37,564 bases of DNA, taken from Deltaproteobacteria bacterium PRO3. Its GTDB lineage: Bacteria; UBA10199; DSSB01. The notes under the pieces were generated by a model. It made no database searches. It was not told the DNA's origin and saw only the letters and a list, made by a program, of their open reading frames with translations. The translations under genes and the position numbers were made by a program. Positions 1 through 35,488 of this stretch are shown here, piece by piece; the first letter of the stretch is position 1, and every line of letters starts with the position of its first letter. Where the stretch lies: assembly GCA_030263375.1 (NCBI GenBank), contig SZOV01000030.1, positions 1-37,564 of the forward strand, read 5' to 3'.

Positions 1-3000
1 GACGTCGTTGGGATACAATTGCGGCAAGAAGGCCTCGCCCAAGGTCAAATTCACGACCCCCAGGGATTTTCCCAGGCCCAGCTCTTTCAGGGCCCGCTCG
101 GAAATATCGATCCCTTCCTGGAGCAAGGCCTCCGCGGCATATTCCCGCAGCTTGGTCACGTTGGGATAGGAATGTCCGGCGCGGCGCGCGACCGCCTCGC
201 GCAGCTTTTGAATTTTGGCGCGAGCCTCGGGGCTGTCGACCAGTAAAAATCCCAGCTGTTCGCTGAGCGTCGGACCCAGCAGGCGCTTGGTGGAATCCAC
301 GTACTCCTGAACCCTGCGAGGGTCGGACAAGAGCTTGTCATCGCGGACGATCCCAAGCCTCTCTTTGGAGGAGACGTTGGAGGCCAGGGCCAGGCGCTCT
401 TCCGGAGAAAGCGCCGGCAACGCGGGTGCCTCGGGCGCCTTGTCCTTCATGGACTCCTCGATCATCTTTTTGAAGGGAGAGGGCTGATCGGACTTCGCGG
501 AAACGATGCCCGCGGCCGACAAGTGGACCCGGACCTTCTGGTCGATGCCGTCGGGACGCAAAATCAGGCCGCCTGTTTCGTCTTTGGCCACGACGAATTT
601 CATGATCCCCATCGGGCCGATCCCGATCCGGTCGCCTTCCGCCAGGGCGATCGGGTCGTAGTTCGATCCCTTCGAGCCCTTTTTCAAGGCCCCGCTCGCG
701 TCCCGAAAATCGACCAAGTAGGCCGGCGGCAATTCCTTGCGGAGCTGTAAGGTCAGCCCGCCCGCTTCCTCCCGCGTCAGGGTGCCCACGGAGACCGGCT
801 TCTCGGCCAGGACGTCCTCCACACGCACCTCGTTCTTGTCGGAGTCTCGGTCCCAAAGCGCGGTGGGCATCGCCATCAGCTCCATCTCGACGCCGAGAGG
901 GAGGTCGGAGGCGGCCAGTTCCCCTTTGGACTCGGAGAGGCCCGTCTTGAAATCCGAGGTCCCGACGGCGATCGCCACGTGGGTCTTTTCGACATCGGGC
1001 GGCGGCACGGACTTGACCTCCAAAGGCGGCGCGCTGGGCTTCATGCGGCTCAGCTGGAATTTCTTCCCCTCGAATTCCACCATGACGGGCTTGCTTCCCC
1101 AATTGAAGCCCCGGCCCCTCAGCAAATAGCGACCGATGGCGTCGACGGAGAGCTCCACGACGACCGGCCCCTCGCGGTAGACGACCTGCGGCTCCTTCGT
1201 GGCGGCGGAGAGGTCGATCTCCTTGGTGCCCACGCGGGCCAAGATCGGAGAAGAGGGCGCGCCGGTCTCTTCCGGATGCTTCGGCGCCGATACGGCTTGA
1301 AGCAACTTGTGGGTCGGGGGGATTTCCTCGGCGATGGGCGCCAGCTTGACGGTCGGGGGCGGCGGAACCACGCCTGGAACCGGTTGCATTTTCGTGGTGG
1401 CCGGTCCCTCCGAGTCCAAGGTCTGCGGCGTCTCGTCGAGCACGTCGTCGATGCGCCACTCTTCCTCGACGGGCGGGGGCAGCAGCTCGTGCTTGTAGAC
1501 GTGAATCGAGATGTTGTCGGCCTTGTATCGGTCCACCGGAAGGAAATAATCCAGGCCCTGGACGGCCTCTCCCTGAAAATATTCCATCTCGTCCTTGGTA
1601 TTTCGGACCGCGAAGCGTCCCTTCGCCCAAGGCACCTCGACGCCGGTGCGCACTTGTCCCTGCGCATCCTTGAATTGCACCGCGCGCCCGACCACCTTGC
1701 CTCCATCGTCCAGGTAATAGTCTTGTAGCCCGTCAATGGGGACCATGTTTAAGTCCTGGATATCGGCCCCTTTCTCTCGGACCGGAACGAGGAAGACGTT
1801 TTGTCCCGCCTTGAGCTGCTCCGATCCGATCTGCAGGCGCTCCATTTTAAGGCGAAGGGCCGCCAGGATCTTTTCCCGCGCCTCTTCCGGGGTCTTGCTG
1901 CCCTGGACCAGGACGGACAATTCGTCTTTCGAGAAATTGTCGCCGATCCCGTCGGAGAACAGGAGGGTCCAATCGCCCGGCTGCAATTCCACGGAGGCAA
2001 ACTCGGGCTTCGCGTCCTTGCGCAGACCCAAGCCGCCCGAGACGACATGGGAATGAGGCGACCACCGCATCTCCATGGTGTTCTTCAAGGACCCCAAATC
2101 GCGCCACTGGGCCACGAGGGACTGCTCGCGGGTGGCGAAGACGACCTCGAAGCCGCCGTCGGGCTTGGGCCGCAAGACCAGGGCGCCGGCATCCCCGACG
2201 TGGGCGATCTCGGCGTAAGTGCGCCCGTTCTTTTGCACGACGCGTTGGGCCACCGCGGTGGTGCCCGCGTTCTTCGTGGGATCGTCCGGCGGGTTGACTT
2301 CTTCGTTGACCGCCCGACCCGCATGGATCAGCGCCTGTTTCAGATCTCCAACCCAACTCGGATTTTTGACGATTTCCGCAAGCTTGCGGACCGCCACCGC
2401 GCTGGCCTTGTCGCCCCCGCCCATGCCACCCATGCCGTCGGCGACGATCGCCACGCCGTATTCGGGGAGCACTCCGTAGGCGTCCTCGTTCACCGACTTG
2501 CCACCCAAACCCTCGTCGGTGTGGGCGGCGAAGGATCCGTAAGCGAAGGTCGGTTCATTTTGCGCGAAGGCGGCGCGCCGCGGCTTGTCCGGTAGGTTGT
2601 CCTGGACGGCGAGGGGTAATTTTTCGACGGAAAATTTTTGGGCGCCGGGATCGACGACGGCCGCGGCGCGAATCTCGGGCACAGGCATAGGGCCCGCTGC
2701 CGGCGTTAAACCGGCATCGGGCACAAGCCGATCCTTGTCGAGGATCTCGAACTCGAGATCCCCGGTTTGGCGAAAGCTGCGTCCGCTCCAAGGATCCTGT
2801 TGCAGAGGAGACCACATCGTTCCTTGCCGCGCATAGAGCTTGTCCCCGATGCGAAGATAGGCCTGCTCGGGCACCCGGTAGCCCCAGGAAATGCTTTCCC
2901 CCGTCTGGGAATCAAAGCCACGCTCCAGGCCCAAGGGCCGGCCGGCGGCATCGAGGACCTGGACGATCTCGTTGCGCGGCAGGACCCAAAAATCCTGCCC

Positions 3001-6000
3001 GTCCCGATGCAGCAGGGCCAGGACGTCTTCACCCGTCAAGTCCGGATGGCGGATCGCAACGTCGGTAGATTCCGGGAGGTACCGGATATCGAGGCCGGCC
3101 TGCCAGACATAGGAGCCCGTCTCCAGCGGCGAGACGGCATCGGCCTGGGCTGGCGGCGTCGCTTGCGAAGGTACCTCCGGCGCGGCGACCGAGGGAATAT
3201 CGGCCTCGTGCTCGAAACGGAACAAGATGCGGTTGCTGGAGGGATTCGGGTCGGTCGGATTTTTGACCAGGATCTTCTGGCCGGGCACGATCCGGGTCGG
3301 CTGGGTGACGGGCGTCTCTACTCCCTGAGCGTCCACCAGAAAAATTTGCCGCAAAGCCGGCGAGGCCGAGGGACGCAACAGGAAGCTCCCGTTTTCCACT
3401 TTTTCGATCTTGCCGTAGGTCTGCGGGTTTTGGATCGCGCCTACGCCGCCGGCCGCCGTGGCGCGCCGATCGTCCTCGTTGCGCTCGCCGAAGGTGAAGG
3501 AATTTTTCCCAGCCGGAAAACCGATCGGGAGTCCCTCCAGGCCCAGGTCGACGAGCGGACGGCTGCTCTCCACCTCGTAGACGTCCTTGCCCCCCTCTTG
3601 GCGGACGCGCAGAGTCAGGGTGACAGAACCCTGGGCATGCGGCAGAACGATCTGGTCGCCACTTTCGAAATCGATCCCGTCCGGGGATAATTTCAACGTC
3701 TTGATCTGATAATCGTCCGCCTTGAGCCGGACCTGGACCTCGAACCCTCCCCTGCCGGCGGGGTAGAGTTTCGGAACGCCGTAGTCGTCCAGGTAATGAA
3801 ACTTTACCCCCGCAGTCAGGCCGGGGATATGGAACTGTCCCAGGATCTTGCCGTCGCTGGCGCGGTCGCCGTCCCCTCCGATCGCGATCCCCTCCCCGCC
3901 GCCGTCCCGGACCAGTACGGGTTTCAAGGCAATCTTGGCCGCAACGGGGGCCTGGAAAACGACGGGGATGGCCTCTCCGGCCGGCGGGCCGGAAAGCCAT
4001 CCTTTCATCTTGTCCCCGATCTTTCCAAACCAACCCGCAGCCAACTGCGCCCCGCCGCCCAGCAATCCCTGGCTAAGAACCGCATCGAAGAAGACCGGCA
4101 TTAAAGGCAGGTAAGGAACAGCCTGCAGGGCTATCTGATGGAGACCCGCCATGAGCCCGCTCCACGGCGGAGCAACGGGCGTGGGAGGCACCGGCAGATC
4201 CATTTCGGTCACCGCCTCGCGGTCGACCGGCGTCGATTTCGTCTCTTCGAGAACCACTCCCGGCCTGTCCGCGGCGATCTCCACTTCAACTTCGGAATAT
4301 TTCAACGGCTCGGAAGGTTTTTCATACTCGCGCAGCGTCTTTTCATAAACGGCCATCTCTTCTTTGGCCTTCAGGTAGGCGGTCAATTCGGGGTCGGGGG
4401 CTAGGTCCGTGCGCGAGCCCTTCGCCAATGCAGCCTCGAGCGCAAGCAAGCGTCCTTCCATCTCGGGAGCCAGGGCGCGGACCTTGGGACCGATCTCCAA
4501 GAGGCGCTGCAAGGCCTCGCGCGGGCGCAGGGCGGCGTGGTACTCGGAGGAAAGGGCGATGGAGGTCGACTCGGGCGAGTCCTTGACGTCGCCCTTCGCC
4601 AGGGCGGCAAACTTCTCGCCGTGTTTTTCTTCGAACTGCTTGGCATAGGCCAGTATGTCCTCGGGAGCGGGCGAGGCCTCGGCCTTGAACCGAAGGTTGA
4701 AAGCGATGACGCGGTCCGAGCTCTTGGCTCGCGCGATCACGAAGACGGCTCCGTCCTTGCCCTGCACGACCTTCACGCCGGCCTGCGGGTGCTCCTTGCG
4801 CAGGCGGGCCGCGAGGTTCTCGGCCAGCTCGGTCGCGTAGCCGCGGCCGGGAACGCCGATGGAGACGGTCAGGCGGCCGGGCTCCTCCTGAATCGTCGTT
4901 TTTCCCAGGAGCGGAAAGCCCGCCAGCTTCCGGCCGACTTCAATCGTCGCCATGGCGGCGAGGGCGTCGAGCTTCACCGGCGTCAGCTTCGCCAGGGAGG
5001 ATGGGGGGGCCTTGGTGGCGACGGCCGGTAGTTCCAACTCGGTCGGCGCCTCGCGATCGACCGCGGCCGTCCGGCTCTCCGCGGGCTTCCATTTCAGCTT
5101 CCCATCCCCACCGGCCACTACCTCGCCCAAATAAACGGGCTTGCTCGGCAGCGTCGTGCCGAGACCTTCATCGTAATAGACCTTGTCGCCGACCTGAAGC
5201 GCCGTCGCCTCCTGTTGCAGGACAGTCAACCGCTGCCCCTTCGCATCGACCACGGTAAAGCCCTTGCCCTGCGTCAAGTACAAGGCGCCGTCGGGACCCG
5301 TGTCCACCCGCGCACTGGATATCTCCAGTTCGGCGGGGGCGAAGCTTACCTCGAGATAGGCCCGCGTCGGGACCTTCGCCTCTTTGGCGCGCCGCTCCCA
5401 CTCCTGCTTCGAGATCGCCCGCGGATCTGCCGCCAATGGGATCAGCTCCAGGTTTTCGGGCTTTCCCTTCACGGCGAAGAATCGGTCTCCGATCTGAACC
5501 ACGTCTCCCTGGGCGAGGGACCAGGTCTTGGTCTCCATGGTTCCCGTTTGAGACGCGGTGCCTTCGGGAGTTTTCGGAGACAAAACGGCGTTCAGGCCGC
5601 CGGGCCCCTCTCGCCCCGTCTCGGAAAGGACCTGAACCTGATCGGAGACGGCGCGCAGACTCAGTCCCTCCCCTTCTAGAAGGAATTCACCCACGGTCTC
5701 GACCCCCGCTTCCCCTTCCAGGACGATCTTGAGATCGGCGCCCTTCGGAAAGCCCGCCACCGGTCCCGCGATGGGATGTCGCCCCGGCAACAAAGGCGCG
5801 ACCGGCTTCGGCGCCGCAGGGGCAAGCTTTTCCGAAGCGCGGAGCGTCGTCACTTGCAGGACAGGGATCTTCCCCTTGGGGAGGAGCTTTCCGGTGAGAC
5901 CGACCAAGCCCAGGCGATGGGCCTCGGTGTCGCTGAGCGGCAGCGTCACCGTCTCTCGGCCCTCAAGTCCGAGCGTCTCCAACTCGAAGGTGACCAGGAG

Positions 6001-9000
6001 CCTGCCCTTTTCGCCCGGGACCGGCTCGGTCTTCACGGCCCTGCCCAGCTTCGTCCCGGGCAAAATCGCGTCCGTGACCTGGTAGGGCCGAAGGAAGATC
6101 TGATCCTCGCCCAGAGCAACCGCCACCTGAGGGCGTTCCGGGAAGCCGCCCAAGGCGGGAAGATCCTGAAGCGTCACGGTCTCCCGATCCGCGGCGGTGA
6201 GCTGTCCGGCCAGGACCGGTTTTTGACTCGGAAGCTTCGGCAATCCGACAAGGCCGCCGTAGGTCCCGAAGGGAAAGCTCGCCACCGGGTTCTTCTTGCC
6301 GACCGCGACCGTGTGGATCTCGAGGACGTCGCCCGCTTGGAGGGCGACCGCGACGGGACGTATCTTGGACGACTTGCCGCCCGAGGCTGCCTCGTTCAGC
6401 GGCTTCAGCTCGATCGGATCCGTTTGTCCGGGGCGGCGGATCAGAAGCTTCTCGCCCGGCCTCGCCTGGTAGGTGACCTCGATTTTTTCGAAATTCCTCC
6501 CCAGCTGGATGCCATGGTCCCGCAGCTCCTGCGGCGGCGGGATCTTATCGAAGGGGTGCTCGGGGATCTTGAGGGCGCTCACGCCCGAAGCGACGCGGAA
6601 GGCGGGCTTGGCGCGCAGCACCGGGTCTTCGAGGACCACGGCCTGCCCATCGAAAGACACGAGCAGGTCTCCGTCCCGGAGGACCGCCGCTTCGGTAATC
6701 ATGCCGCGCGCGTCCGTACCGATAAACCAGGACTCCTTCCCCGGGTTTTTGAAAATCCAGCGGTCCCCGCTCCGCTCGAGGTAGCTCTTCGGTCCAAGCG
6801 GGATCTTGTCGGCCTGAGGATCCAGCGACACGCGGCGCGGGACGGCCTCTATCTTCACCTCGAAGCCACCGCCCATCGGGGTGCGGAACTCGAGCTTTCC
6901 GGGCTTTTTCGCGACGAGCTCCAGCCCGAGCGCCTCGGCCTTCTTCAAGACCGCGGCCTCCAGCGTCGCGACCGCCTCGGCATCCGTAGTTTGAAATACC
7001 ATCGCGGGCGCGTCAAAGCGCGGCGGCTTCCCCTCGCGGGCCCGCGCCGCGTCGTCCAACATCCCTAACTCGAAGTCCGGTGAGTCGAGCCATTCGGGGG
7101 TCTGAATCGCCTGGAGAGGGATCTCCGCCTCCGCGGGCGCGTTTTGGGCACGAACCAGCAGGGGCGTGAAGGCCGTGTCCAGGAAGGACATGTAGTACTT
7201 CACCGACTGGGATTGGACCCAGAGGGCGTCGGCGGCCTCGATCTGCGTCCGCAACGCCTCCAGCCCTTTCCTCAAATCGGCCCAATCCTTGGAACCCCAG
7301 TCGCTGCGCTCGATGCGCTTAATCAATTCACCGGCCTCCTCGAAAACCCGAAAGACCTCCGCGGCGTCGGGAAAGGCCTCGGCCATCCTCGCGCGGTTCA
7401 CCTGCATCCCGAGGAAATCGGTGAGGGCCTTGGCCATCCGGTCTCGCACGGGACCGTGGAGCAGGTCCTTTTCATCCGACGGTGGGGCCGCTTCGGACTT
7501 CGACGGGAGGTGCCCCGAAGGATCGGTGTCGTGCTGCAAGGCCCGCAAGACCTCGTCGTAATAGGCGTCGGCTTTGGCCTCGTCTTCCTCTTGAAACAAG
7601 GGCTTGGGCGGAAGATTCAGTGGCGCCGCGCCTTCGACTTCGACTTTGACAAGAACTTTCCTTCCGGTCGGGGTGAGAAACACCAACTCCCCCGGCCCGC
7701 CGAAATCTTCCAGGGTCAGCTTCAGGGCGTCGGCCTTCTCGCTGACCGCGACCAGGGCGTCCTCGCGCGACTCGCCCTTGGGGAGACGGATGAAGATCTG
7801 AGCCGGCTCGTCGGCGGCTTGAAGCGCCGCCTCCATCTGCCGCATCCCCTCCGCCATGGCCTCCTGGCCGAGGATCTCGGCGATCGCCTCGGGCTGGCCT
7901 AGCCGTGCGGCGGCGAGCTGGTCCGGGTACTTCACCGTCGGGGCCTTGGATCGCTGCGGAGGCAAAAGCGGAATGACATTTTCGACCGCGTCGCCCCCTG
8001 TCAAATCCGTGTCGGCTGGCGTTTCACTCCCCAGCCACCAATCCTCCTCCGCGGCCGCGATGGCCAGCGGGACCACCTGTTCGGGGGACAGCGACATCTC
8101 CGTGCCTTCTCCGAAGACATCGATCTCTGGGTCCGGCAAGCCGTGGACACCAAGTTGGGCCTCATCGCCAAAGACTTCGCCGTAATCTTGCTTGGGCTGC
8201 TGGGCCTCGAAGGCGCCGAAGAAGTCGCCGAAGGGTCCTCCATCTCCGGCCAGGAACAAGGCGGGATCGAGCGGAGATTTCAGCACCTCCTCCGCGATAG
8301 CCCGCGCCCGCTCGGCGGTGAGCTTGCCGCCGGCCAGCTTCCGCATCAAGGCGATGCGAAACTCCGCCTGCTTGTGCTCAGGCAGGGCCTGCACCGCGGG
8401 CTCCAGGGCGGAGACGGCGCCCTCGATCTCGGCGTACCACCGGTCCCAATCGGGATTCCGATCGCCCTCCACCCGGCGGAAGAATTCGGGGACGATCTTC
8501 GTAAGATCGTCGTAGTCCCGCATCGAGAGGGCCTCGCCGGCGCCGAACCAGGCAGGAAAATTTTCATACAGGTCCCGCATCACGCTCCCGCCCTCTTCCA
8601 TGCGGCGCGCGACGCTGCCGATCTCCTCGAGGTAGACCTCTCCGTCGGGCGTCAAGGTGAAGAGCTTGCGTCCCAAGTCCTTGCCCTCTTGACGGATCCA
8701 GGTCCCGCTTTTGAGCGGCTGTCCTTCTTTGGCGGGGACCCAGGTCTTCGTGACGGGGTTGTAGACCTCCACCTTGCGGCCCGGATTCGGGAAAAGCCAG
8801 GCCTTGCCGGCCTCGACCTCGATCTCGGCGTACTTCGTGCGGGCTCGGCCCCCAACCTCCTCCACCGAGGCGATGCCTTGGAGGTTGAGCGGTACCGGCC
8901 GCGCCTCGGCGGGGTACAGGGCGCCCAACAAGGCCTTCGGACTTCCGGCCGCTCCCAACAGGGCGATGAATTTTTTCGCGATCCTCCCGCGTCCCTCCGG

Positions 9001-12000
9001 CGTGCTGACGCCGGTGGCCTCCGCCTCCAGCAAGACCTCCGCGATGCGCCCCAAAAGCGCCGGTTCCGTCCAGGAGGCCAGGCTCGCTGCGAGTTTTTTT
9101 CCGGTCGCGGCGTCCTGGAGCGCCTTCAAAAATAAGGTCGTTTTCACGGAATAGGCCGCGGGGCTTTGGTGGACATCGCGGGCCTGGAGCAGCCTTTCCG
9201 CGGCGGCATCGAGTTGCGGCTTGGCCTCCCGCAGGTCCTGGGCCACATTCTGGAAATACTGAAGCGCCTTCGCGGGATCCTTCCCCTGGTCGCCAAACTC
9301 GACCGCCTTCAGCAATAACTCGGCCGCCAACAGTTGTCCCTGCGGGGTGGCGAGGGCGCCCTCCCCCAAGAGCCCTTCCGCGATCGCCCGGAGGCCCTTT
9401 TGAAATTTTGCCGACTGCTTGGCCAAGGCGGAGATCTGCCCCGCATCGAGCCCCATCCGTTCAAAGCGAAGCTGAAGTTTTTCGCTGAGGCCGGGATGGG
9501 TGATCCCGCTTCCTTCCACCAAGGTGTCCGCGGCCCGGGCGGTTTTTTTGCCGCCTTGGGCGACGGCCTTGGCTAGGGCCTCGGAAGAAACGGCATCGGA
9601 GCTCGGCCCGCGATCTGAGCTCGTCGCCTCGACCCAGGCGTCGAGCTCTTTCCATCCTCTTTCTTTCGCAGCCTTTCGCGTCGTGATGCCGAGGAGCTTG
9701 GCGAGGCCTTCGTAGATGTCGCCCAAGGTCCAAGGGAGGCCGGCGAAATTGGCTTGGGTTCGATAGGGTCCGGCCTCCGGGCTCGCTTCCGGCGCCTTTG
9801 CCAAAGGCGTCGCCGCTTGGACGTCCCGCTCCAATAAGGCGCGGGGTGATTTTTTGGATGCCACGGCCTCTTCGAGGAGGCTCAAAACCACCTCGGCCCG
9901 CATCGTCTCTCGCAAGTCGTCCGTAAGCTTGGCTCCGGGTTGAACGTAGGCGTCGACCAGCACATCGAGCTGGTCGTTGAGCTTCGGCGTCGCGGCGAGC
10001 TCCTTCGCCATTTGCTTCGCTTGTTTGGGCGTCAGGCCGCGGAAGGCCAATTCGTAATAGGCCGACAGGTGCTCGGGGGATCGGATGCCCAAGGACTCCG
10101 CCGATTTTTGGAACTCGGCGAACTGCTCGGCAATGCCCTTCTTTCCTTTGACCTCGAAATAGTCCAAGACTTGAAAGGCGCGCAGCTGGGCCTCCCAGGA
10201 GTTCGGGTCCAAATCCGGATACAGTTTCTGCACTACCTCTTTGGCCTGGGCGATCTTTGCGGGATCCTTGGAAACGGCCTCCAAACGCTGCGGATCCATG
10301 GCCAACAGCGCGGCCAATTCCTTTTCGCCGGCCTTGGCCCCGTCCACCGGTCGTCGTTCCTCGACCCAGGCCTTGGCCGCGTTGAAATCCAAATCCCAGC
10401 CGAAGCCCCGGGCGGCCGCCTCAATGTCCGTCTTGCGGTCTTGCAGCTGGGCCTTCTGCTCGACGGCGTGGAGCCAGCCCCCCGTCGAGAAATCGATCAA
10501 TCTCCCGGCAAATCCCTCACCGAGATTCTCGCGCTTCTCCTCGAATCCGCCCTTCAGCACCTTGGAAAAGATCCGCAGGATCAGGGAGGCCTCTTGTTCC
10601 AATTCGGAAACCTTCTGGATCCCCAAGCCCTCCTGCGCGAAGGACATCCCCGCCTCGAACAGCCCGCCCGCGGTGAACTCGCCCATCTCCAGCATGACTC
10701 GGGTGGAGAAGCCGATCGCCGCCTGACCGGCGACCCGTTGCCCGAAGGTGGAGCTGCGCTTGGCGGCCTCGCCGAGCTTTTGGCTGAGGCGCGCGATATG
10801 CCGGTAGCCGAAGTAGCTGATAAAGGTGGTCGTGCCGGTCGTCGCCAGACCTTTGGCCGAAAAGGCGTCCCAATTTCCGGTCCAGGCCGATTCGACCAAC
10901 ATGCCGCTCAAGGAAGAGGCCGCGACGTTGGCGAGGATGGAGAGGCGCTCGCCCGCGCCCATGAGGCGGGCCCCCGCGCCCGCGAGACGGCCCACTCCGG
11001 CCGGGACCAGCCAAAGGGCGGCGCTTTTCCCCGCCTCGCTCAGGCTCTCCGCGCCGACGACGGAGAGATTTCCGAGGAAGACGCCCGTTTCATGAATCAC
11101 CGAGCGATTGGCGATGCCCGTGCGGTAGGATTTCGCCTGGGTCCCGACGTATCGATCGTTGCCCATCATGTCCAAGATCTGCGAGGCCGCTCCAAAATAG
11201 GCGACGTCCTTGGCCCCGGCTTGAAAGAGATCGAAATCGCCGGCCGAACCCAGATAGGTCCCCATCTCCAGTCCCAAGGCGGCGAAATCGCGGTCCGTGG
11301 CCTCGGGATTGGTCGCCGTCTGCAGAAGACTGAGGGATTTTTCGTTGAACTCCCGCCAATCGATGGAATCGCTCTCCCCGACCGCCCATTTATAAAAGTC
11401 CCGGCCTTGATGGGCGTCGTGGCGGACGTATCCGAAGGCCGCGAACAAATCCTCGATCGAGCGGTAATCTCCGCTCTCCAGCTTGTCGCGGAACAGCTCC
11501 GCCCGCGCCTTGAATTCGGCGCGGAACTTGTCGGCCTCCGCCTTGCCCTTCCGCTGCTCCAACTTTTGCGCGTATTCGGCGGCCACGGCCTCCAAGGCCC
11601 CCAGCACCTTCGGCAACCGTTGGGATCTTTGGTAGGCGACGATGGCGTCGTAGCTCCGCTGGGCCTCTTCCACGCCGGGCAAGGACTGGAAGAATTTTTT
11701 CGCCGCGTCGTAATCGGGCGGCTCCTTCAAGAGGGCCCGATGGCCCTGGGCCAGCGTCGCGGCCGTCTGCAGGCCCTCGTCCACCGTGCCGCTGAGATAC
11801 CGGTCCCGCTCCATGGCGACGATCTTTTCATAGACTCGAGCCGCCTCCTCCGGAAGCCGGACCGCCTGGTAGAGCTTGGCGATGTCCAGCAAAGACTCCG
11901 CGCGTTCCGCCGCGGTCAGATGGGGGTCGGCGGCAACTCCTTCGAAGAAATCCATGGCGGGCTTCAGCACCGTTTTGACGCGTTCCGGGGGGCCGCCGCG

Positions 12001-14325
12001 CTTGGAATAAAGCTCCGCCGCCTGCATGCGCAGTTGCAGGGCCTCAGCCTGCCATTTGGCGGATTTTTCCTCGGGCAGTTTTTTGAGCTTGGCCGCCTCG
12101 ACTTTGGCTTCGAGCGTTTTGGCGCGGGTCTCCAGGTCATAAGCTTTGTAGCTCATGGCCACGAAGGCCTCGAGACCCTTCGGGTTTCGCAGCAATGCGG
12201 CAAAAGAGGCGTCGCCGCGTTGGACCGCCTCTTGGCTTAATGCCGATACATCCTCCCCTATCGCCTGCAAAAGCTCGGGCTGCCGGGCCACCATCGGAAA
12301 TCGCTCGGCGATCACCTGGGACGCCAGGGCCTGGAGGTGCTCGGCGTTGCGCCGGACCAAGGGCGCCAGCTGCTCCTGGTTGAGCGGGGGATTCTCCCCG
12401 ATTTTCGTCAGTGGGTAGAAGAGCGAGAGCACCGCCGACATATCGGCCCGCCGGTCCAACTCCGCTTTCGGCTCGAGCTGGCTGTGATCCAGGTCCTCTT
12501 CCCAAGCCTTGAGGTGCTCCAGCATCTCCTTGCCGAGGTCCTCCGCGACAATGCCCACGCCGATCGCGCCGCTGCGCTCGGGATGGGCGATGCGATCGAG
12601 CAGGCCCGGTTCCCAGGCGCCGCGAATCGGCCGGGTGAGCGCGTCGACATATTCCGGAAACCTCGCGACGTCCAGGCGGACGACCTTTTCGCGCAACTCA
12701 AGCCGTTCCTTCGAACCCAATTTTTTGGCGTCGGCATTCTTCTGCATCACCAATTGCAGACGATCGATCTCCATCAACTGGACCGGATCGTCATTGGCAA
12801 TCCCGGCTTCCTGGCGAATCTTCACCGCCTGAATCAGGTCTTCCGCGACCTGCATTATCTCGGCCAATTCTTTGTCGTCGGCGACTTTGGAATCCGCGCC
12901 CCGCAAATGGCGGTTGGTCACCTTCATCGAGGATTCCAAAAAGAATCCCATCCATTCGGGGGAGGCGATCTCTTCTTTGAGCTCCGCCTCCAGCTTCAAC
13001 CCGCTGCCCTTCAACTCGGCATGGATGCGGCCCAGCATTTTGTAGTCTTCGATGGGGGCGTCTCCCCGGCCCAACAGCTTGCGAATCTCCCGGTCCATCG
13101 CTCGGGCGGCGGCCTCGTCGCGCAACTCGGCGTAGGCGCCCAAGGCCTTGAGGTAATCCTCCTTGGCCCCCTGCGCGTCACCCGCTTGGGACTTCTGCAT
13201 CGCGGACAGCATGGCCGCGTCGGCCTCGACCGATAATTGAGCGAAATTTTTCATCCCCTCGAGGCTGAGGCCGGAAAGCAATTCCGGCTGCAAGATTGTG
13301 TCGCTGGGAGGAGACGGAAAGATCCGATCGAGCATCACGCGGACGTGCTCGGCGCCGTTCGGAACCGGCTTGTTGTCTACCGAAATTAGTTTGGGATTGT
13401 CGCGCAAGGTGGCGACGATCTCGTCCTTCAAGGACTGAATCTTAGCCTGCATCTCGGCGGCGCCTTGGCCGAGCATGTTGTCGCCTAGCTCAGACCAAAC
13501 CTTGAGCACTGAATTCAACTCTTCCACCTTGGCGGCGGGATCCTTCAGGCCTTGGGCGGCCTTTTTCCACGCCTCCAAATCCCAACGCAGGGCGAAGTCA
13601 TCTCCGATCGTCCTATCAATCGCCACCAGCAGGCGCTGGGCCTCCACCGAATCCGGTTGAGAGCGCAGCTCCTCGCCCACTTCCTTCAGCCTCGCCTCGA
13701 GCTTCTGTTGCTTCTCGAGGGACCGGCGGGCGAGATCGTCCTGGGAGCCTTTATGGTATTTGGAATAGTAGTGATGCTTGGCCTGCTCCAAGGCGCGCAG
13801 GCGCGAGAGGATCTCGAAGGCCGCCTTGGCCTTGGCCGGATCTTTCGGAACCGGAGCGCCCCACTGCTGCGAAGCGTCCGTGCCGGCGGCGTCTCCCGAC
13901 TTGGCCTCTGCCGCTTCGCCGCCTTGGAATTCCTTGAGGTAGGCTTGGACTTCCGGGTCTTTCGCCTGCTCCATCAGGGCCGGCATCGCGGCCTGCATGG
14001 CGTCGATCTTGGATTTGGCTTGGGCCTCGGCAGCGGGGCCCGTTCCGGCGTCTTTGTAGGTGCTTTGAAATTCCTTCTCCGCCTGGTCGAAATGGGCGGC
14101 GGCCTCCTCCGGCTTGAGCTCCTTGGGCTTTTGCGCCTCGGCCGCGGCCTGGGCGTATTTCGCCAGAAATTCGTACCCCGACTGGGCGATCTCGTAAAAA
14201 TATTGGGACGGCGACTCGGCGCCTTCGGCGCCGGCCGAGGCATCCACTTTCGAGGCGTCGGCCTGCGCTGGAGGAATAATCTGCGGGGGGACCGATCCCG
14301 AACCCAGTCCAACCTTATCTGCCAT
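1..14325 (-). CDS. Giant multidomain protein with PPM/PP2C phosphatase domain, partial at its C-terminus
   Basis: One frame is open for 4775 codons from ATG 14325 to the window edge, with no stop seen. GGAG lies 7 nt before the ATG. Visible layout by residue: 1-1080 mostly helical and charged, TPR-like around 800-920; 1081-1230 Gly/Ala-rich hydrophobic module; 1230-1800 helical; 1800-3900 repeated small beta-rich modules joined by Pro-rich linkers; about 3925-4280 a PPM-type Ser/Thr phosphatase with NEDA (D3948), DGMGG (D3963), HVGDAG (D4045), SDG (D4125) and ADNIS (D4270); 4285-4370 a Pro/Thr linker; about 4505-4590 an FHA-like beta module. There is no signal peptide. Intact metal ligands suggest active dephosphorylation of phospho-Ser/Thr proteins; partners are unknown. 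The phosphatase call is firm, the rest is descriptive. Total length cannot be known here. Confidence 0.9.
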   Translation of the reverse strand, partial: MADKVGLGSGSVPPQIIPPAQADASKVDASAGAEGAESPSQYFYEIAQSGYEFLAKYAQAAAEAQKPKELKPEEAAAHFDQAEKEFQSTYKDAGTGPAAEAQAKSKIDAMQAAMPALMEQAKDPEVQAYLKEFQGGEAAEAKSGDAAGTDASQQWGAPVPKDPAKAKAAFEILSRLRALEQAKHHYYSKYHKGSQDDLARRSLEKQQKLEARLKEVGEELRSQPDSVEAQRLLVAIDRTIGDDFALRWDLEAWKKAAQGLKDPAAKVEELNSVLKVWSELGDNMLGQGAAEMQAKIQSLKDEIVATLRDNPKLISVDNKPVPNGAEHVRVMLDRIFPSPPSDTILQPELLSGLSLEGMKNFAQLSVEADAAMLSAMQKSQAGDAQGAKEDYLKALGAYAELRDEAAARAMDREIRKLLGRGDAPIEDYKMLGRIHAELKGSGLKLEAELKEEIASPEWMGFFLESSMKVTNRHLRGADSKVADDKELAEIMQVAEDLIQAVKIRQEAGIANDDPVQLMEIDRLQLVMQKNADAKKLGSKERLELREKVVRLDVARFPEYVDALTRPIRGAWEPGLLDRIAHPERSGAIGVGIVAEDLGKEMLEHLKAWEEDLDHSQLEPKAELDRRADMSAVLSLFYPLTKIGENPPLNQEQLAPLVRRNAEHLQALASQVIAERFPMVARQPELLQAIGEDVSALSQEAVQRGDASFAALLRNPKGLEAFVAMSYKAYDLETRAKTLEAKVEAAKLKKLPEEKSAKWQAEALQLRMQAAELYSKRGGPPERVKTVLKPAMDFFEGVAADPHLTAAERAESLLDIAKLYQAVRLPEEAARVYEKIVAMERDRYLSGTVDEGLQTAATLAQGHRALLKEPPDYDAAKKFFQSLPGVEEAQRSYDAIVAYQRSQRLPKVLGALEAVAAEYAQKLEQRKGKAEADKFRAEFKARAELFRDKLESGDYRSIEDLFAAFGYVRHDAHQGRDFYKWAVGESDSIDWREFNEKSLSLLQTATNPEATDRDFAALGLEMGTYLGSAGDFDLFQAGAKDVAYFGAASQILDMMGNDRYVGTQAKSYRTGIANRSVIHETGVFLGNLSVVGAESLSEAGKSAALWLVPAGVGRLAGAGARLMGAGERLSILANVAASSLSGMLVESAWTGNWDAFSAKGLATTGTTTFISYFGYRHIARLSQKLGEAAKRSSTFGQRVAGQAAIGFSTRVMLEMGEFTAGGLFEAGMSFAQEGLGIQKVSELEQEASLILRIFSKVLKGGFEEKRENLGEGFAGRLIDFSTGGWLHAVEQKAQLQDRKTDIEAAARGFGWDLDFNAAKAWVEERRPVDGAKAGEKELAALLAMDPQRLEAVSKDPAKIAQAKEVVQKLYPDLDPNSWEAQLRAFQVLDYFEVKGKKGIAEQFAEFQKSAESLGIRSPEHLSAYYELAFRGLTPKQAKQMAKELAATPKLNDQLDVLVDAYVQPGAKLTDDLRETMRAEVVLSLLEEAVASKKSPRALLERDVQAATPLAKAPEASPEAGPYRTQANFAGLPWTLGDIYEGLAKLLGITTRKAAKERGWKELDAWVEATSSDRGPSSDAVSSEALAKAVAQGGKKTARAADTLVEGSGITHPGLSEKLQLRFERMGLDAGQISALAKQSAKFQKGLRAIAEGLLGEGALATPQGQLLAAELLLKAVEFGDQGKDPAKALQYFQNVAQDLREAKPQLDAAAERLLQARDVHQSPAAYSVKTTLFLKALQDAATGKKLAASLASWTEPALLGRIAEVLLEAEATGVSTPEGRGRIAKKFIALLGAAGSPKALLGALYPAEARPVPLNLQGIASVEEVGGRARTKYAEIEVEAGKAWLFPNPGRKVEVYNPVTKTWVPAKEGQPLKSGTWIRQEGKDLGRKLFTLTPDGEVYLEEIGSVARRMEEGGSVMRDLYENFPAWFGAGEALSMRDYDDLTKIVPEFFRRVEGDRNPDWDRWYAEIEGAVSALEPAVQALPEHKQAEFRIALMRKLAGGKLTAERARAIAEEVLKSPLDPALFLAGDGGPFGDFFGAFEAQQPKQDYGEVFGDEAQLGVHGLPDPEIDVFGEGTEMSLSPEQVVPLAIAAAEEDWWLGSETPADTDLTGGDAVENVIPLLPPQRSKAPTVKYPDQLAAARLGQPEAIAEILGQEAMAEGMRQMEAALQAADEPAQIFIRLPKGESREDALVAVSEKADALKLTLEDFGGPGELVFLTPTGRKVLVKVEVEGAAPLNLPPKPLFQEEDEAKADAYYDEVLRALQHDTDPSGHLPSKSEAAPPSDEKDLLHGPVRDRMAKALTDFLGMQVNRARMAEAFPDAAEVFRVFEEAGELIKRIERSDWGSKDWADLRKGLEALRTQIEAADALWVQSQSVKYYMSFLDTAFTPLLVRAQNAPAEAEIPLQAIQTPEWLDSPDFELGMLDDAARAREGKPPRFDAPAMVFQTTDAEAVATLEAAVLKKAEALGLELVAKKPGKLEFRTPMGGGFEVKIEAVPRRVSLDPQADKIPLGPKSYLERSGDRWIFKNPGKESWFIGTDARGMITEAAVLRDGDLLVSFDGQAVVLEDPVLRAKPAFRVASGVSALKIPEHPFDKIPPPQELRDHGIQLGRNFEKIEVTYQARPGEKLLIRRPGQTDPIELKPLNEAASGGKSSKIRPVAVALQAGDVLEIHTVAVGKKNPVASFPFGTYGGLVGLPKLPSQKPVLAGQLTAADRETVTLQDLPALGGFPERPQVAVALGEDQIFLRPYQVTDAILPGTKLGRAVKTEPVPGEKGRLLVTFELETLGLEGRETVTLPLSDTEAHRLGLVGLTGKLLPKGKIPVLQVTTLRASEKLAPAAPKPVAPLLPGRHPIAGPVAGFPKGADLKIVLEGEAGVETVGEFLLEGEGLSLRAVSDQVQVLSETGREGPGGLNAVLSPKTPEGTASQTGTMETKTWSLAQGDVVQIGDRFFAVKGKPENLELIPLAADPRAISKQEWERRAKEAKVPTRAYLEVSFAPAELEISSARVDTGPDGALYLTQGKGFTVVDAKGQRLTVLQQEATALQVGDKVYYDEGLGTTLPSKPVYLGEVVAGGDGKLKWKPAESRTAAVDREAPTELELPAVATKAPPSSLAKLTPVKLDALAAMATIEVGRKLAGFPLLGKTTIQEEPGRLTVSIGVPGRGYATELAENLAARLRKEHPQAGVKVVQGKDGAVFVIARAKSSDRVIAFNLRFKAEASPAPEDILAYAKQFEEKHGEKFAALAKGDVKDSPESTSIALSSEYHAALRPREALQRLLEIGPKVRALAPEMEGRLLALEAALAKGSRTDLAPDPELTAYLKAKEEMAVYEKTLREYEKPSEPLKYSEVEVEIAADRPGVVLEETKSTPVDREAVTEMDLPVPPTPVAPPWSGLMAGLHQIALQAVPYLPLMPVFFDAVLSQGLLGGGAQLAAGWFGKIGDKMKGWLSGPPAGEAIPVVFQAPVAAKIALKPVLVRDGGGEGIAIGGDGDRASDGKILGQFHIPGLTAGVKFHYLDDYGVPKLYPAGRGGFEVQVRLKADDYQIKTLKLSPDGIDFESGDQIVLPHAQGSVTLTLRVRQEGGKDVYEVESSRPLVDLGLEGLPIGFPAGKNSFTFGERNEDDRRATAAGGVGAIQNPQTYGKIEKVENGSFLLRPSASPALRQIFLVDAQGVETPVTQPTRIVPGQKILVKNPTDPNPSSNRILFRFEHEADIPSVAAPEVPSQATPPAQADAVSPLETGSYVWQAGLDIRYLPESTDVAIRHPDLTGEDVLALLHRDGQDFWVLPRNEIVQVLDAAGRPLGLERGFDSQTGESISWGYRVPEQAYLRIGDKLYARQGTMWSPLQQDPWSGRSFRQTGDLEFEILDKDRLVPDAGLTPAAGPMPVPEIRAAAVVDPGAQKFSVEKLPLAVQDNLPDKPRRAAFAQNEPTFAYGSFAAHTDEGLGGKSVNEDAYGVLPEYGVAIVADGMGGMGGGDKASAVAVRKLAEIVKNPSWVGDLKQALIHAGRAVNEEVNPPDDPTKNAGTTAVAQRVVQKNGRTYAEIAHVGDAGALVLRPKPDGGFEVVFATREQSLVAQWRDLGSLKNTMEMRWSPHSHVVSGGLGLRKDAKPEFASVELQPGDWTLLFSDGIGDNFSKDELSVLVQGSKTPEEAREKILAALRLKMERLQIGSEQLKAGQNVFLVPVREKGADIQDLNMVPIDGLQDYYLDDGGKVVGRAVQFKDAQGQVRTGVEVPWAKGRFAVRNTKDEMEYFQGEAVQGLDYFLPVDRYKADNISIHVYKHELLPPPVEEEWRIDDVLDETPQTLDSEGPATTKMQPVPGVVPPPPTVKLAPIAEEIPPTHKLLQAVSAPKHPEETGAPSSPILARVGTKEIDLSAATKEPQVVYREGPVVVELSVDAIGRYLLRGRGFNWGSKPVMVEFEGKKFQLSRMKPSAPPLEVKSVPPPDVEKTHVAIAVGTSDFKTGLSESKGELAASDLPLGVEMELMAMPTALWDRDSDKNEVRVEDVLAEKPVSVGTLTREEAGGLTLQLRKELPPAYLVDFRDASGALKKGSKGSNYDPIALAEGDRIGIGPMGIMKFVVAKDETGGLILRPDGIDQKVRVHLSAAGIVSAKSDQPSPFKKMIEESMKDKAPEAPALPALSPEERLALASNVSSKERLGIVRDDKLLSDPRRVQEYVDSTKRLLGPTLSEQLGFLLVDSPEARAKIQKLREAVARRAGHSYPNVTKLREYAAEALLQEGIDISERALKELGLGKSLGVVNLTLGEAFLPQLYPNDV

Positions 14326-15017: not shown

Positions 15018-15079
15018 TATTTGAATTTGAAAGGAAATAAATTTGCTCCGTCTTCATTTCCGGCTCCCGCGTCTGGGGC

Positions 15080-15099
15080 CCTCGGCTGCCAGGCCGAGG
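15080..15099 (+). promoter_or_regulatory. Leader hairpin upstream of the ABC-F gene
   Basis: CCTCGGC (15080-15086) pairs perfectly with GCCGAGG (15093-15099) around a 6-nt loop. It is followed by CCCC-ATC-GGGG and AGGG/CCCT pairings up to about 15142. A 29-codon frame (ATG 15120 to TGA 15207-15209) follows; its stop overlaps an in-frame ATG of the ABC-F gene as TGATG. No known riboswitch class fits by eye. Attenuation control is inference only. Confidence 0.35.
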
Positions 15100-15202
15100 T
15101 TTGACTCCCCCATCGGGGTATGGGTCTAGGGTTTCCAGCCCTCGAAATCGGCCGCATCCAGATATTGCGGGGGAGAGGAAAACAAGCTAGGGCAGCCGCC
15201 GC

Positions 15203-17080
<1,878 letters not shown>

Positions 17081-17529: not shown

Positions 17530-20283
17530 CTAATTGACGAAGCGCTTCGGCTTCTTGGGACCGGGACGGTCCGAGGGGCGCGTCTCCGAGCGCCGCGGCG
17601 GCGGCGCCTCGCGATCGGCGCGGCGGTACCTCTCGACGCCCTCCGCCGCCCAGCGGACGAGGAAGGATTGCGGGATCAGGTCTTCCGTGACCACCCGACC
17701 GGGATTATCCGCATAGTAGCCGGCCTTGTCGGCCTCGGCCTGCCAGGCCTCGAGGATCCCGCGGCTGATGGACTCGCGGGCCCGCAAGGGCAGCGCATCG
17801 AAGCCCTCGACGACCGAGGCGTACTGCTCGATGAGCATCTCCGGCGTGACCACCGAGAGCAGGCGATAGGGATCGGCGTTGAGCAATCCGCGCAGGCGGT
17901 TCGCGAGGGCCGAGCCTTCCTGGAAGGCTTGGGCGGCGTGGAGATTTCCGTGCTGGGAAATCAGACCCAGGGCGTAGAGCGCCCGATCCGAGGTCCTCGC
18001 CTCGCGCAGGATCGGCGCGGGGTCCATTCTTCCCAAAAAATCGCCCGCGGGCCGAAGGCCCGAAAGCGCCAAGTCGTGCAGCACCGAGACCGCGCCCAAA
18101 TCTCCCTCCTCGGCCAGGTCTTTGAGGTCGAGGAAGGAGCCCTCGCTGCCGTAGCGGTACAACTTCAACAGCAAGCCGGCGGAACCCGGCGCGACCGTAT
18201 AGAGCTCGATGCTCGCGAGCAGCTCCGCCGCCGTCGGATTTCCCGCCTGAGCCATCAGGTAAAGCGAGTGGACGGTGAAATCCTCGATCTCCTTGTTCTC
18301 GTAGAGCTCGACAGGAAATTCTCGCAGCCGGCGCAGGGCCGAGACCGCGGCGTCTCCCTCGCCCCTGCCAACGACGGCCAGCAACTGAACCGCCTTCGCC
18401 GCGTCGGACATGGAAGACTCAGAGACATGGCGCTGGGCCTCCCGCGACAGGGCCTCTACGACCGGCTCGCCCAGCCCTTGCACCAATCGCCTGGCTGAGG
18501 CGTTGCCGCCCTCGAAGGCAAAGCGCAGGGGCGAAGAGATCTCGACCAAGCGGGCGGCGTCGCCCGAGGCCATTTCGAGATAGGGGGAGAAATCCATCTC
18601 CTGAACCGCCTCCAGGGCGCGGGCGTTGCCGCCCTTGCCCAGCTCGAAGAGGCTGCGCAGGGCGTAGGGATTGCTGCCGGCGAATTCCCGGAGGGCGGAG
18701 ACGTCGAGGCTCCGCAGGCCCGCATCGATCTGCTCCAAGACCTCGGCCCGCCCCTGGAAATTTCCCTCGGCGTCCCGCAGCGAGCTCAGGAAGGCGATCG
18801 CCTCGGGCGAGACGCGCGCCTCGTTGAGCAGCAACCCGATCAGGTCGCGCCGCAGCTCAGGGTTGGGCGTCATACGCAGCGTCCGCCACAGGTCTTGAAA
18901 CTGCTCGCGGGTCATCGCGGCCTCGGCGCTAGGGCCTTCCACCGACGGAGCGCGTTCCCCGCCGAGAACACGCCCGGCGCCGGGATCCCTCGGGCCCTTC
19001 GGATCGCTGCGATCGGAGGACATAAAGAGGGGCTTGCTCATCAGCTCGGACAGGCTCTCGGGCCACGCCGCATTTCGGAGGGGCAATCCAAGACCCGCGC
19101 CGGCCGCCGCCAGAGAAGTGAAGGGACCGAATGAACCGGGAAACCGCGGCCGCAGCGGCGCGCGCCGCGCCAAGGCCTCGGCCTGCAGGTCCAAACCCCG
19201 CTCGAGGCGCATCCAACCCGGCCCCATCAGACCCTGCGCCAGACGCCCGCCGACATGGAATTGCAAGAGCGTCGCCAGGGCGTCGGTGAACTCGGTGCCG
19301 TCCGCCAGTCGCGGCCTCAATCCCAGCCGCGCCTCGAGGCGGTGGCTGAGCAGGATCCCGCCCAGCATCCCGGCCTGCGGCAGGACGGCGCGCGTCAGCG
19401 ACAATGTCAAACCCTCGCCGGGGCCCAAGGCCCGCACCGCGCCGCGCGCCAAGGCACCGGTGGCGCGAAGCCCCACGAGCGTCAAGGCGCCCGAGGCCCA
19501 TTCGCGGCCCACGGCATCAAAGGTCCAATCCTGGGGGCGCCCCAGCAAGGCATTGCCGCCGCGGACTCCGGCGGTGAAGGCGAGACTCTCCGCGAACATG
19601 CCGGAGGCATAGGCGAGCGCGCCGGGCATCCAGCCGCGCGTCACAAGCGAAACCGTCGGCGCCGCGGCGAGGCGGCTCAGGGTCGCGACGCGCGCCAGGC
19701 GGAAGGTCATGCCCGCCGCCGTCATGCCGAGGATCATGGCGGGATCGGTGGCCTGGGCAGCGAGGCGACGCGAAAGAAACTCAAAACGCGCGCCCGTCGA
19801 TCCCTCGCCGCGCATCGTTCGCAGGCGCTCCCGCGCGCGGGCCTCCAGGGCGCTTAGCCAGGCCGCGGACTCGACCGGCGACGCGGCGGCCGTGGCTCGC
19901 GCCGCCTCCGACAAGACGCCATAGACCGTCGCGGCCTGCGGCAGGCGATCCCGATTCTCCAGCTCGCGGCCCAAGCCCCACAGGCCCTCGAAAAAGAGTT
20001 GGGCATCGCCCTCGCCCGCCAGATGAAGCATCGCCTCGAGGCCGTCCGCGCCCCAATTCCGCTCCAGCTCCGCGCGAAAGGCCCCGCCCTGGCGGTACAG
20101 CGCCAGGCGCAAATCCCCGTCGGCCCCCGCCAAGGCGCCGGAAAGCGCGCCGGGGGCGTCGCCCCCTTCCAGGAGGCGGGCCAAGATCGCGGCGCCCTCC
20201 CGACGCGGGTTCCTGGAGGTGGGCGTCGCGGACGCCCCGGCCGAAACGGCTTGGAGCCGGGAGCCAAGTATCGAATATTCCAT
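17530..20283 (-). CDS. Large hypothetical protein with hydrophobic module and helical-repeat tail (917 aa)
   Basis: I do not recognise a family. ATG 20283 is chosen because extension further upstream would run into the divergent ferredoxin gene; no good ribosome site is seen. The N-terminal 130 residues are helical. Residues about 140-330 are Gly/Ala-rich and hydrophobic, possibly membrane-inserting, with the segment GRPQDWTFDAVGREWASG. Residues about 420-860 look like a HEAT- or Sel1-like alpha solenoid with recurring GN.RA..A and G.L.AV elements. The C-terminus is basic and Pro-rich. The order helical part, hydrophobic module, repeats mirrors residues 800-1250 of the giant protein, where TGNWDAFSAKGLATTG occupies the equivalent place. 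A scaffold or envelope-associated role is only a guess. Confidence 0.75.
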   Translation of the reverse strand: MEYSILGSRLQAVSAGASATPTSRNPRREGAAILARLLEGGDAPGALSGALAGADGDLRLALYRQGGAFRAELERNWGADGLEAMLHLAGEGDAQLFFEGLWGLGRELENRDRLPQAATVYGVLSEAARATAAASPVESAAWLSALEARARERLRTMRGEGSTGARFEFLSRRLAAQATDPAMILGMTAAGMTFRLARVATLSRLAAAPTVSLVTRGWMPGALAYASGMFAESLAFTAGVRGGNALLGRPQDWTFDAVGREWASGALTLVGLRATGALARGAVRALGPGEGLTLSLTRAVLPQAGMLGGILLSHRLEARLGLRPRLADGTEFTDALATLLQFHVGGRLAQGLMGPGWMRLERGLDLQAEALARRAPLRPRFPGSFGPFTSLAAAGAGLGLPLRNAAWPESLSELMSKPLFMSSDRSDPKGPRDPGAGRVLGGERAPSVEGPSAEAAMTREQFQDLWRTLRMTPNPELRRDLIGLLLNEARVSPEAIAFLSSLRDAEGNFQGRAEVLEQIDAGLRSLDVSALREFAGSNPYALRSLFELGKGGNARALEAVQEMDFSPYLEMASGDAARLVEISSPLRFAFEGGNASARRLVQGLGEPVVEALSREAQRHVSESSMSDAAKAVQLLAVVGRGEGDAAVSALRRLREFPVELYENKEIEDFTVHSLYLMAQAGNPTAAELLASIELYTVAPGSAGLLLKLYRYGSEGSFLDLKDLAEEGDLGAVSVLHDLALSGLRPAGDFLGRMDPAPILREARTSDRALYALGLISQHGNLHAAQAFQEGSALANRLRGLLNADPYRLLSVVTPEMLIEQYASVVEGFDALPLRARESISRGILEAWQAEADKAGYYADNPGRVVTEDLIPQSFLVRWAAEGVERYRRADREAPPPRRSETRPSDRPGPKKPKRFVN

Positions 20284-27721: not shown

Positions 27722-28618
27722 ATGAAGAAACTCTTTTACCTGCTTTCGCTCCTGCTACTGCCCGCCTGGGCCCAGGCCAAGGTCAATGTCGTCGCAACGC
27801 TCCCGGTGTTCGGCGCGCTGGCGACCGAAATCGGAGGCGACCGGGTGGCGGTGCAGTCCCTCGCGCGCGGCAACCAGGATCCGCATTTCCTGGACGCCAA
27901 ACCCTCCTACGTGGTCGCCTTGAACAAGGCCGACCTGCTCATCGAAGGAGGCCTCGACCTGGAATCCGGATGGCTGCCGGCCATCCTTATCCAGTCCCGC
28001 AACGGCAAGATCCAGCCGAATACCGACGGCAACGTCAATGCCGCCAAGGGGCTTCGGATCCTCGAGATCCCCGGGGCCAAGTTCGACCGCTCCATGGGCG
28101 ACGTCCACCCGCTCGGCAATCCGCACGCCTGGTTGGATCCGCGCAACGCCAAGCTGATCGCGGCCAATATCTATCAGCACCTCGCCAAGATCGATCCGGA
28201 GGGGCAACCCTACTATGAAGCGCGCCTCAAGGACTTCCTGAGCCGGCTCGACCGGAAGATGGCGGAATGGGAACCCCTGCTGCAGAAGATCCGCGGCAAG
28301 AAGGCGATCAGCTACCACAAGAGCTTCAGCTACTTCGCGGATTGGACGGGCCTCGAGATCGTCGCGAATATCGAGGCCAAGCCCGGCATTCCGCCCAGCT
28401 CGAAGCACATCGACGACCTCCTCAAGATCATCCCGCAGCAGGGCGTAAAAGCGATCCTCGCGGAGAGCTTCTATCCGAAAAAGGTCCCCGCCTACCTGTC
28501 GGAGAAGGCCGGCATCCCCTACCTCATGCTGCCCTCGGACACCGACGAGTACGGCATCGTCACCTATTTCGAGTTGATCGATTACCTGCTTCGTGAAATA
28601 GCTAAGGCGCTAGGATGA
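27722..28618 (+). CDS. znuA: Periplasmic metal-binding protein of a zinc/manganese ABC transporter (ZnuA-like)
   Basis: A 298-aa cluster A-I binding protein with a signal peptide ending near AQA (residue 19). The usual metal ligands are visible: His55 (DPHFLDAKPS), His135 (NPHAWLDP), His199 (YHKSF) and Asp273/Asp275 (LPSDTDE). The long His-rich loop found in many proteobacterial ZnuA proteins is missing. Three His plus one acidic ligand fits zinc or manganese, and zinc is favoured by the His-rich neighbours. AGGAGG precedes the ATG. The stop overlaps the ATPase start as ATGA, so translation is coupled. Confidence 0.9.
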   Translation: MKKLFYLLSLLLLPAWAQAKVNVVATLPVFGALATEIGGDRVAVQSLARGNQDPHFLDAKPSYVVALNKADLLIEGGLDLESGWLPAILIQSRNGKIQPNTDGNVNAAKGLRILEIPGAKFDRSMGDVHPLGNPHAWLDPRNAKLIAANIYQHLAKIDPEGQPYYEARLKDFLSRLDRKMAEWEPLLQKIRGKKAISYHKSFSYFADWTGLEIVANIEAKPGIPPSSKHIDDLLKIIPQQGVKAILAESFYPKKVPAYLSEKAGIPYLMLPSDTDEYGIVTYFELIDYLLREIAKALG

Positions 28619-31098: not shown

Positions 31099-31122
31099 GG
31101 ATGAACTTGTGTTCTCCCCTAC
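31095..31122. repeat. REP-like palindrome between converging genes
   Basis: GTAGGGATGAAC (31095-31106) and GTTCTCCCCTAC (31111-31122) pair at 10 of 12 positions around TTGT. The left TAG (31096-31098) is the stop of the oxidoreductase and the right CTA (31119-31121) is the queA stop read on the minus strand. The unit closely resembles each arm of the repeat at 35381. It can act as a two-way terminator. Confidence 0.8.
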
Positions 31123-32162: not shown

Positions 32163-32163
32163 C

Positions 32164-32192
32164 TTGACAATACCCACCTCGCGGCTTACAGC
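32164..32192 (+). promoter_or_regulatory. Predicted promoter of the RND exporter gene, possibly leaderless
   Basis: A perfect TTGACA (32164-32169), a 17-nt spacer and TACAGC (32187-32192) end 8 nt before ATG 32201. No ribosome site is seen. The -10 box is weak (3/6). Confidence 0.35.
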
Positions 32193-32200
32193 CTTGGCCG

Positions 32201-34907: not shown

Positions 34908-34922
34908 TAGTGGACTCTTTTC
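34899..34922 (+). terminator. Candidate rho-independent terminator of the exporter gene
   Basis: TCCACT (34899-34904) and AGTGGA (34909-34914) pair perfectly around TAAT, which includes the TAA stop. CTCTTTTC follows. The stem is short, so strength is doubtful. Confidence 0.4.
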
Positions 34923-34973
34923 TCGGCCGCATTCATATTTCTAAGGGTCTGCAACCATTCTTGGGAGGTACCT

Positions 34974-35384: not shown

Positions 35385-35446
35385 GGGCGAACCTTGTGTT
35401 CGCCCTCCCCATCCCTGCACAAGGGCGAACACAAGGTTCTCCCTAC
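35381..35446. repeat. REP/BIME-like double palindrome after the doxX gene
   Basis: A 26-nt left arm (35381-35406) and a 25-nt right arm (35422-35446) are inverted copies differing by one substitution and one missing base, around a 15-nt loop. Each arm contains its own palindrome, GGGCGAAC and GTTCGCCC around CTTGT. The single unit at 31095 is a diverged copy. The long stem probably stops doxX transcription before aceE. The left TAG (35382-35384) is the doxX stop codon. Confidence 0.85.
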
Positions 35447-35451
35447 ATTCT

Positions 35452-35480: not shown

Positions 35481-35488
35481 GACCCGGC

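Follow-up and report, generated by a model that had tools for sequence, protein, structure and literature searches.

A giant frame with an embedded PP2C phosphatase domain in a bacterium of the UBA10199 lineage, and a candidate effector-like protein family around it

The analyzed stretch (the window) is the complete 37,564-nucleotide contig SZOV01000030.1 of Deltaproteobacteria bacterium PRO3 (assembly GCA_030263375.1; lineage UBA10199), and it begins inside a giant gene that encodes a PP2C-type Ser/Thr phosphatase domain. The open reading frame (ORF) of this giant runs on the minus strand (1..14325; 4775 codons, ATG at 14325) and reaches base 1; since the window is the entire contig, the missing 3' end was lost at the assembly end, and the full-length protein exceeds 4775 amino acids (aa). 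The start codon is backed by the start of an ortholog in a sister species (MADK.../MVDK...). All genomes compared here are fragmented assemblies. The giant is a real gene, and the observation of a genuine uninterrupted frame, made in an earlier note from the sequence of the window alone, is confirmed. Under the base composition of the window, a run of 4775 codons free of stops has a log10 probability of about -51, and coding periodicity is kept throughout, the GC content by codon position (~0.68/0.44/0.80) being uniform along the entire frame. The sister-species ortholog, a 1659-aa open frame from another assembly, is colinear with residues 1-1674 at ~52% (52-53%) identity, and the PP2C region of the giant has a 44% match in a 4000-aa frame of another genus, so that a chimeric join is unlikely. 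An assembly artefact or chimera, suggested by the fragmentation of the assembly and by a contig that stops within the gene, has a negligible probability and is already largely refuted by the uniform codon-position GC, by the colinear ortholog in a separate assembly, and by many comparable giants across independent genomes. ARAGORN places a tRNA-Leu(gag) antisense within the gene (5515-5612, plus strand), which is probably a false positive, as Rfam finds nothing there.

The PP2C domain of the giant (residues ~3926-4167; 1825..2550, minus strand) was identified by profiles and motifs and has conserved flanks. It matches PF13672 with an E-value of 8.5e-8 (32.4 bits, above the cut-off of 24), NF033484 with 2.1e-26 (92.9 bits, not reaching the cut-off of 230 set for this Stp1/IreP equivalog), and the nearest solved bacterial PP2C chains with 6e-16. 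All metal-binding motifs (NED, DGMGG, SDG, and DN) are kept, and because they are intact the domain is likely to be enzymatically active. Its catalytic core and metal-binding motifs are those of the solved Stp1/PstP/PphA-type phosphatases (PF13672, NF033484), but these relatives are chains of ~234-268 aa, whereas the core of the giant sits in a protein of more than 4775 aa. Pfam and NCBIfam contain no whole-protein match and give no library domains besides PP2C-type families; in particular, domains of nonribosomal peptide synthetases or polyketide synthases (NRPS/PKS), adhesin, Ig-like, and autotransporter domains are all absent. The earlier note had recognized the phosphatase with its metal ligands and had seen neither synthetase nor adhesin signatures; both claims stand, and the library searches assign the protein to no known secreted giant family. 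An FHA domain, which that note had listed among the profiles to be searched, is not significant in the window giant (none in Pfam; best E-values of 0.013-0.43 with a local FHA profile), whereas FHA domains are clear in its paralogs. TPR matches likewise occur only in the paralogs, with none in the window giant itself.

The remainder of the giant is arranged as a succession of parts, all on the minus strand. The N-terminal helical, TPR-like part (residues ~1-1023; 11257..14325), 52-53% identical in the ortholog, shows weak similarity to the helical parts of other giants. It is followed by a hydrophobic helical segment (~1041-1313; 10387..11205) that was aligned by hhalign to a module of the giants, as described below, and by an element common to giants (~1610-1680; 9286..9498), which iterated profiles also find in a 4092-aa giant on contig C10 and in 4000-, 3409-, and 4369-aa giants of genome G004. 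The beta-rich region (~1690-3860; 2746..9258) is mostly an orphan, with few or no homologs among ~1800 fetched ORFs; profiles detect within it two copies each of repeat A (~2156-2230; 7636..7860 and ~2422-2494; 6844..7062) and repeat B (~3059-3129; 4939..5151 and ~3327-3406; 4108..4347). The C-terminal extension (~4460-4775; 1..948) has no homolog in the ortholog or in other giants. The helical, hydrophobic, and beta-rich parts proposed in the earlier note are thus all present, and the absence of a visible signal peptide is upheld. The labels "helical" and "beta-rich" rest on sequence reading and on low-confidence models (AlphaFold pLDDT of 44 for the module from a single sequence and of 33 for a two-sequence giant module). 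The maximal 19-residue hydropathy of the giant is only 1.49, and hence there is no clear transmembrane helix.

The hydrophobic part of the giants is homologous to an undescribed helical module of ~275 residues, which was found near the N-terminus of many ORFs when the protein following the giant's ortholog in genome G001 was used as the query. With an alignment of 49 sequences, 87 matches were counted in the genome of the window, at least 54 in each of the related genomes G001, G002, and G004, and 41 in G003. The distribution is patchy: none were found in G005 and G006, which belong to the same family as the genome of the window; a sister family contributed six, and most of the class has 0-2. 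The module is not covered by any Pfam family. It is only moderately hydrophobic (maximal 19-residue hydropathy of ~1.2-1.8 in the modules examined), and by the same measure no strongly hydrophobic bilobed segment was seen in them. The copy in the window giant matches the giants' module with an hhalign probability of 97.9% (E-value of 6e-13; negative controls below 1%). The module profile recovers the G001 ortholog at 1.2e-6 and the window copy itself at an independent E-value of 0.022, and direct comparison of this copy with the main 49-copy alignment is not significant. On these profile comparisons, the window giant appears to carry a divergent copy of the module, linked to the family through its ortholog and the giants' module.

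A second family member, of ~917 aa, is encoded in the window itself (17533..20283, minus strand; module match E-value of 5e-89), and its canonical module (19177..20034, minus strand) is 39% identical to the G001 protein. Its true start is placed at ~20283, since further upstream the codon-position GC is not gene-like on that frame; the mechanical ORF, extending to 21054, is over-extended upstream. An ABC-F ATPase gene adjoins the giant (15203-17080, plus strand), and positions 27722-37564 are ordinary, with genes for ZnuA, an ABC ATPase, an oxidoreductase, QueA, an MMPL protein, and the pyruvate dehydrogenase E1 component.

The C-termini carried behind the module demonstrate drastic differences. 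Among them are transglutaminase, helicase, phosphofructokinase, a pyridoxal phosphate enzyme, aminotransferase plus methyltransferase, beta-ketoacyl synthase, biotin carboxylase with carboxyltransferase, RelA/SpoT, and HExxH proteins, as well as helix-turn-helix domains, sigma-70 regions 2-4 with amine oxidase, histidine-kinase ATPase, PAS, protein kinase, FHA, and the PP2C/FHA giants; many C-termini are without any recognizable domain. Functional motifs are conserved in the sigma part (regions 2-4) of the fusion, the biotin carboxylase part keeps its ATP and catalytic motifs, and unfused biotin carboxylases coexist with the fused ones in the genome. The single-chain biotin carboxylase/carboxyltransferase-type fusions, of ~2500 aa, lie on contigs C62 (L121:3953-11329) and C78, with similar frames in relatives. 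The sigma-70 and amine oxidase fusion on contig C53 (L111:1293-4958) is interrupted within the module by an in-frame TGA, and its counterpart in G002 (C118, 1265 aa) is an open frame.

Giants are numerous in this lineage. Further giants with PP2C and/or FHA domains, of 1641-4118 aa, are encoded in the same genome, and relatives contain giants of 3-5 thousand residues. The window giant is a member of a paralogous set of FHA and/or PP2C giants. In one paralog (contig C7, L026:2-7366), a single frame contains FHA domains and PP2C together with a domain of the RelA/SpoT synthetase type. On contig C23 (L071, L072), three consecutive giants (3479, 2718, and 1994 aa) resemble one another in an N-terminal motif, LxxETxxLLxxNxxFFE. 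A frame in genome G010 (contig C17, positions 4988-57667; L075-L077) is open up to the contig end for 17,560 aa; besides FHA and a receiver domain of the response-regulator type, PP2C occurs in it in five divergent copies.

PP2C frames are recurrently paired with a protein of ~900 aa composed of the module and an HExxH domain. At ten loci in several genomes, namely those with both genes on the fetched stretch, this protein adjoins the 3' end of the PP2C ORF in a 3'-end-on arrangement, with gaps of -7 to 205 bases; in G001 it lies 131 bases downstream of the ortholog of the window giant. The HExxH motif is present in 11 of 11 aligned partners and is followed ~20-35 residues downstream by a conserved Glu, the combination that characterizes gluzincins, and the partners are therefore putative peptidases, with no matching Pfam family. 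The closest relative of the G001 partner in the genome of the window (48% identity) is encoded on contig C161, where a 284-aa frame that runs open to the end of the contig lies ahead of it. This frame is probably the end of the window giant; there is no sequence overlap between C161 and the end of the window contig.

The genome encodes a non-flagellar type III secretion apparatus. Contig C12 carries genes for SctR, SctS, SctT, SctL, and SctN, the last with an EscN-type C-terminal domain, as well as for a lipoprotein of the YscJ family (SctJ), a TPR protein, a protein resembling FliM/SctQ, and FHA proteins that contain YscD-like domains. The only FHIPEP protein of the genome scores higher with non-flagellar SctV (591 bits) than with FlhA (466 bits). 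Genes for SctC, SctU, and the needle were not identified in this genome. The sctV-type gene shares contig C24 with a small PP2C gene (L032:7486-9651 and 15022-15795), and in several members of the class an FHIPEP gene shares its contig with FHA and/or PP2C genes. Delivery by a type VI secretion system was considered and rejected, the sheath protein VipB being absent from 13 of 13 genomes. At their predicted N-termini, module proteins are rich in Ser/Pro and poor in Lys/Leu (50 proteins vs. 74 genome controls; p = 5e-7 for Ser+Thr+Pro), which is suggestive, if weakly, of a secretion signal. No relevant work linking UBA10199 to type III secretion, to predation, or to giant genes was found in the open-access literature searched.

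Several known systems resemble parts of this picture. Polymorphic toxin and effector families join a constant module to variable C-termini and occur in tandem copies, and the module family is similar in both respects; unlike in polymorphic toxins, however, no immunity genes were recognized, and what the module carries is not nucleases or pore formers but regulators and enzymes of metabolism. The chlamydial Inc proteins also form a large lineage-specific family with a common hydrophobic domain and a variable remainder in a genome with type III secretion (PMC3048545), but their defining feature is a hydrophobic domain of bilobal shape, whereas the module has ~275 aa, is moderately hydrophobic, and heads enzymes and giants; the two are likened by features, not by sequence relation. 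Phospho-signaling is tied to a type III system by chlamydial CdsD and the Ser/Thr kinase PknD (PMC2765968). In our case, the corresponding elements are FHA proteins in the type III cluster and a nearby phosphatase, and neither giant proteins nor a shared module are known for the chlamydial system. Very long frames like the present one have been surveyed in Omnitrophota, Planctomycetota, and Elusimicrobiota, where huge proteins are largely uncharacterized (PMC11573180); the text of that survey does not mention phosphatases. Nor did the open-access literature searched yield a description of FHA/PP2C giants accompanied by an HExxH protein and by a module in 87 copies.

We tentatively favor, at somewhat less than even chance, the interpretation that the giant belongs, as one of the PP2C proteins, to an effector-like arsenal that is specific to the lineage and exported by the type III system. 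The helical and hydrophobic N-terminal third would dock or insert the giant at a membrane or complex, the beta-rich region would bind partners, and the PP2C domain would dephosphorylate Ser/Thr phosphoproteins, whereas the FHA domains of paralogs would read phosphothreonine. The partner of the giant's ortholog has a gluzincin-like HExxH domain besides the same kind of module, and this pair, along with other module proteins, may be exported into another cell. Effectors are favored because a constant module is combined with variable cargo, a layout resembling that of effector and polymorphic families, because the amplification is lineage-restricted, because normal enzyme copies are kept, and because type III genes are present. 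Several facts weigh against this interpretation. The giants are far larger than any type III substrates known to us; the sigma factor, helix-turn-helix, RelA/SpoT, and histidine-kinase ATPase cargoes fit the cytosol of the producer equally well; FHIPEP secretion genes, unlike the module, are found throughout the class; the location of FHA and PP2C genes near secretion genes could mean self-regulation; and the test of N-terminal composition is weak, since the start codons were guessed.

Close behind comes a scaffold operating in the producer's own cell, in which the module would be an assembly or membrane-docking tag gathering extra regulators and enzymes, and the giant a phosphatase hub of a phospho-signaling network, perhaps controlling the type III system. 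It is placed there, as a possibility of roughly one in three, because the cargoes are conserved bacterial cytosolic functions (sigma regions 2-4, biotin carboxylase, RelA/SpoT) and because FHA proteins occur in the type III cluster and a small PP2C near sctV; the recurrence of FHA domains among giants and the lack of visible signal peptides agree with it. A scaffold accounts less well for the unfused biotin carboxylases kept beside the fused ones, for a module distribution that is patchy even inside one family, and for the many C-termini without a recognizable domain and the orphan mid-region of the giant. The signaling scaffold proposed in the earlier note is possible, but its cytoplasmic location is not established, the repertoire being at least as effector-like, and membrane tethering is unproven given the low hydropathy. 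This proposal is partly supported overall; it missed the paralogous giants, the 87-copy module, the HExxH partner, and the type III system, because they lie outside the window. A surface or secreted giant, with external adhesin or ligand modules in the beta-rich region and an accessory PP2C, is improbable: apart from NRPS/PKS, most giant proteins of bacteria are surface proteins of attachment or recognition (PMC11573180) and beta-rich repeats are present, but neither a signal peptide nor an adhesin, Ig-like, or autotransporter domain was seen, and PP2C, FHA, and RelA/SpoT act in the cytosol as enzymes or readers. Even less probable is an anti-phage or conflict system with the PP2C giant and the HExxH protein as an internal defense pair; two-gene pairing, fast turnover, and patchy distribution would suit it, whereas such a number of pairs, with 87 genes for module proteins in one genome, exceeds what defense systems usually show, and carboxylase and sigma factor cargoes fit poorly.

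One odd giant gene thus proves to be the visible part of a large protein family, as yet without a name, which occupies several percent of the genome. Stated more broadly, and with about one chance in three in our estimate, the ~90 genes may share an undescribed delivery or compartment-targeting module that brings working core regulators and enzymes, from a sigma factor, RelA/SpoT, carboxylase, and kinases to the FHA/PP2C giants with their protease-like partners, into bacterial prey or host cells so as to reprogram them, or onto a new intracellular assembly. If exported, these proteins would make up an extensive set of effectors in an uncultured lineage, and the sigma factor and RelA/SpoT cargoes would point to bacterial targets; if intracellular, they would represent a new way to organize phospho-signaling and metabolism. 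The module and the pairing of PP2C giants with HExxH proteins provide a testable handle on why some uncultured bacteria keep giant genes.
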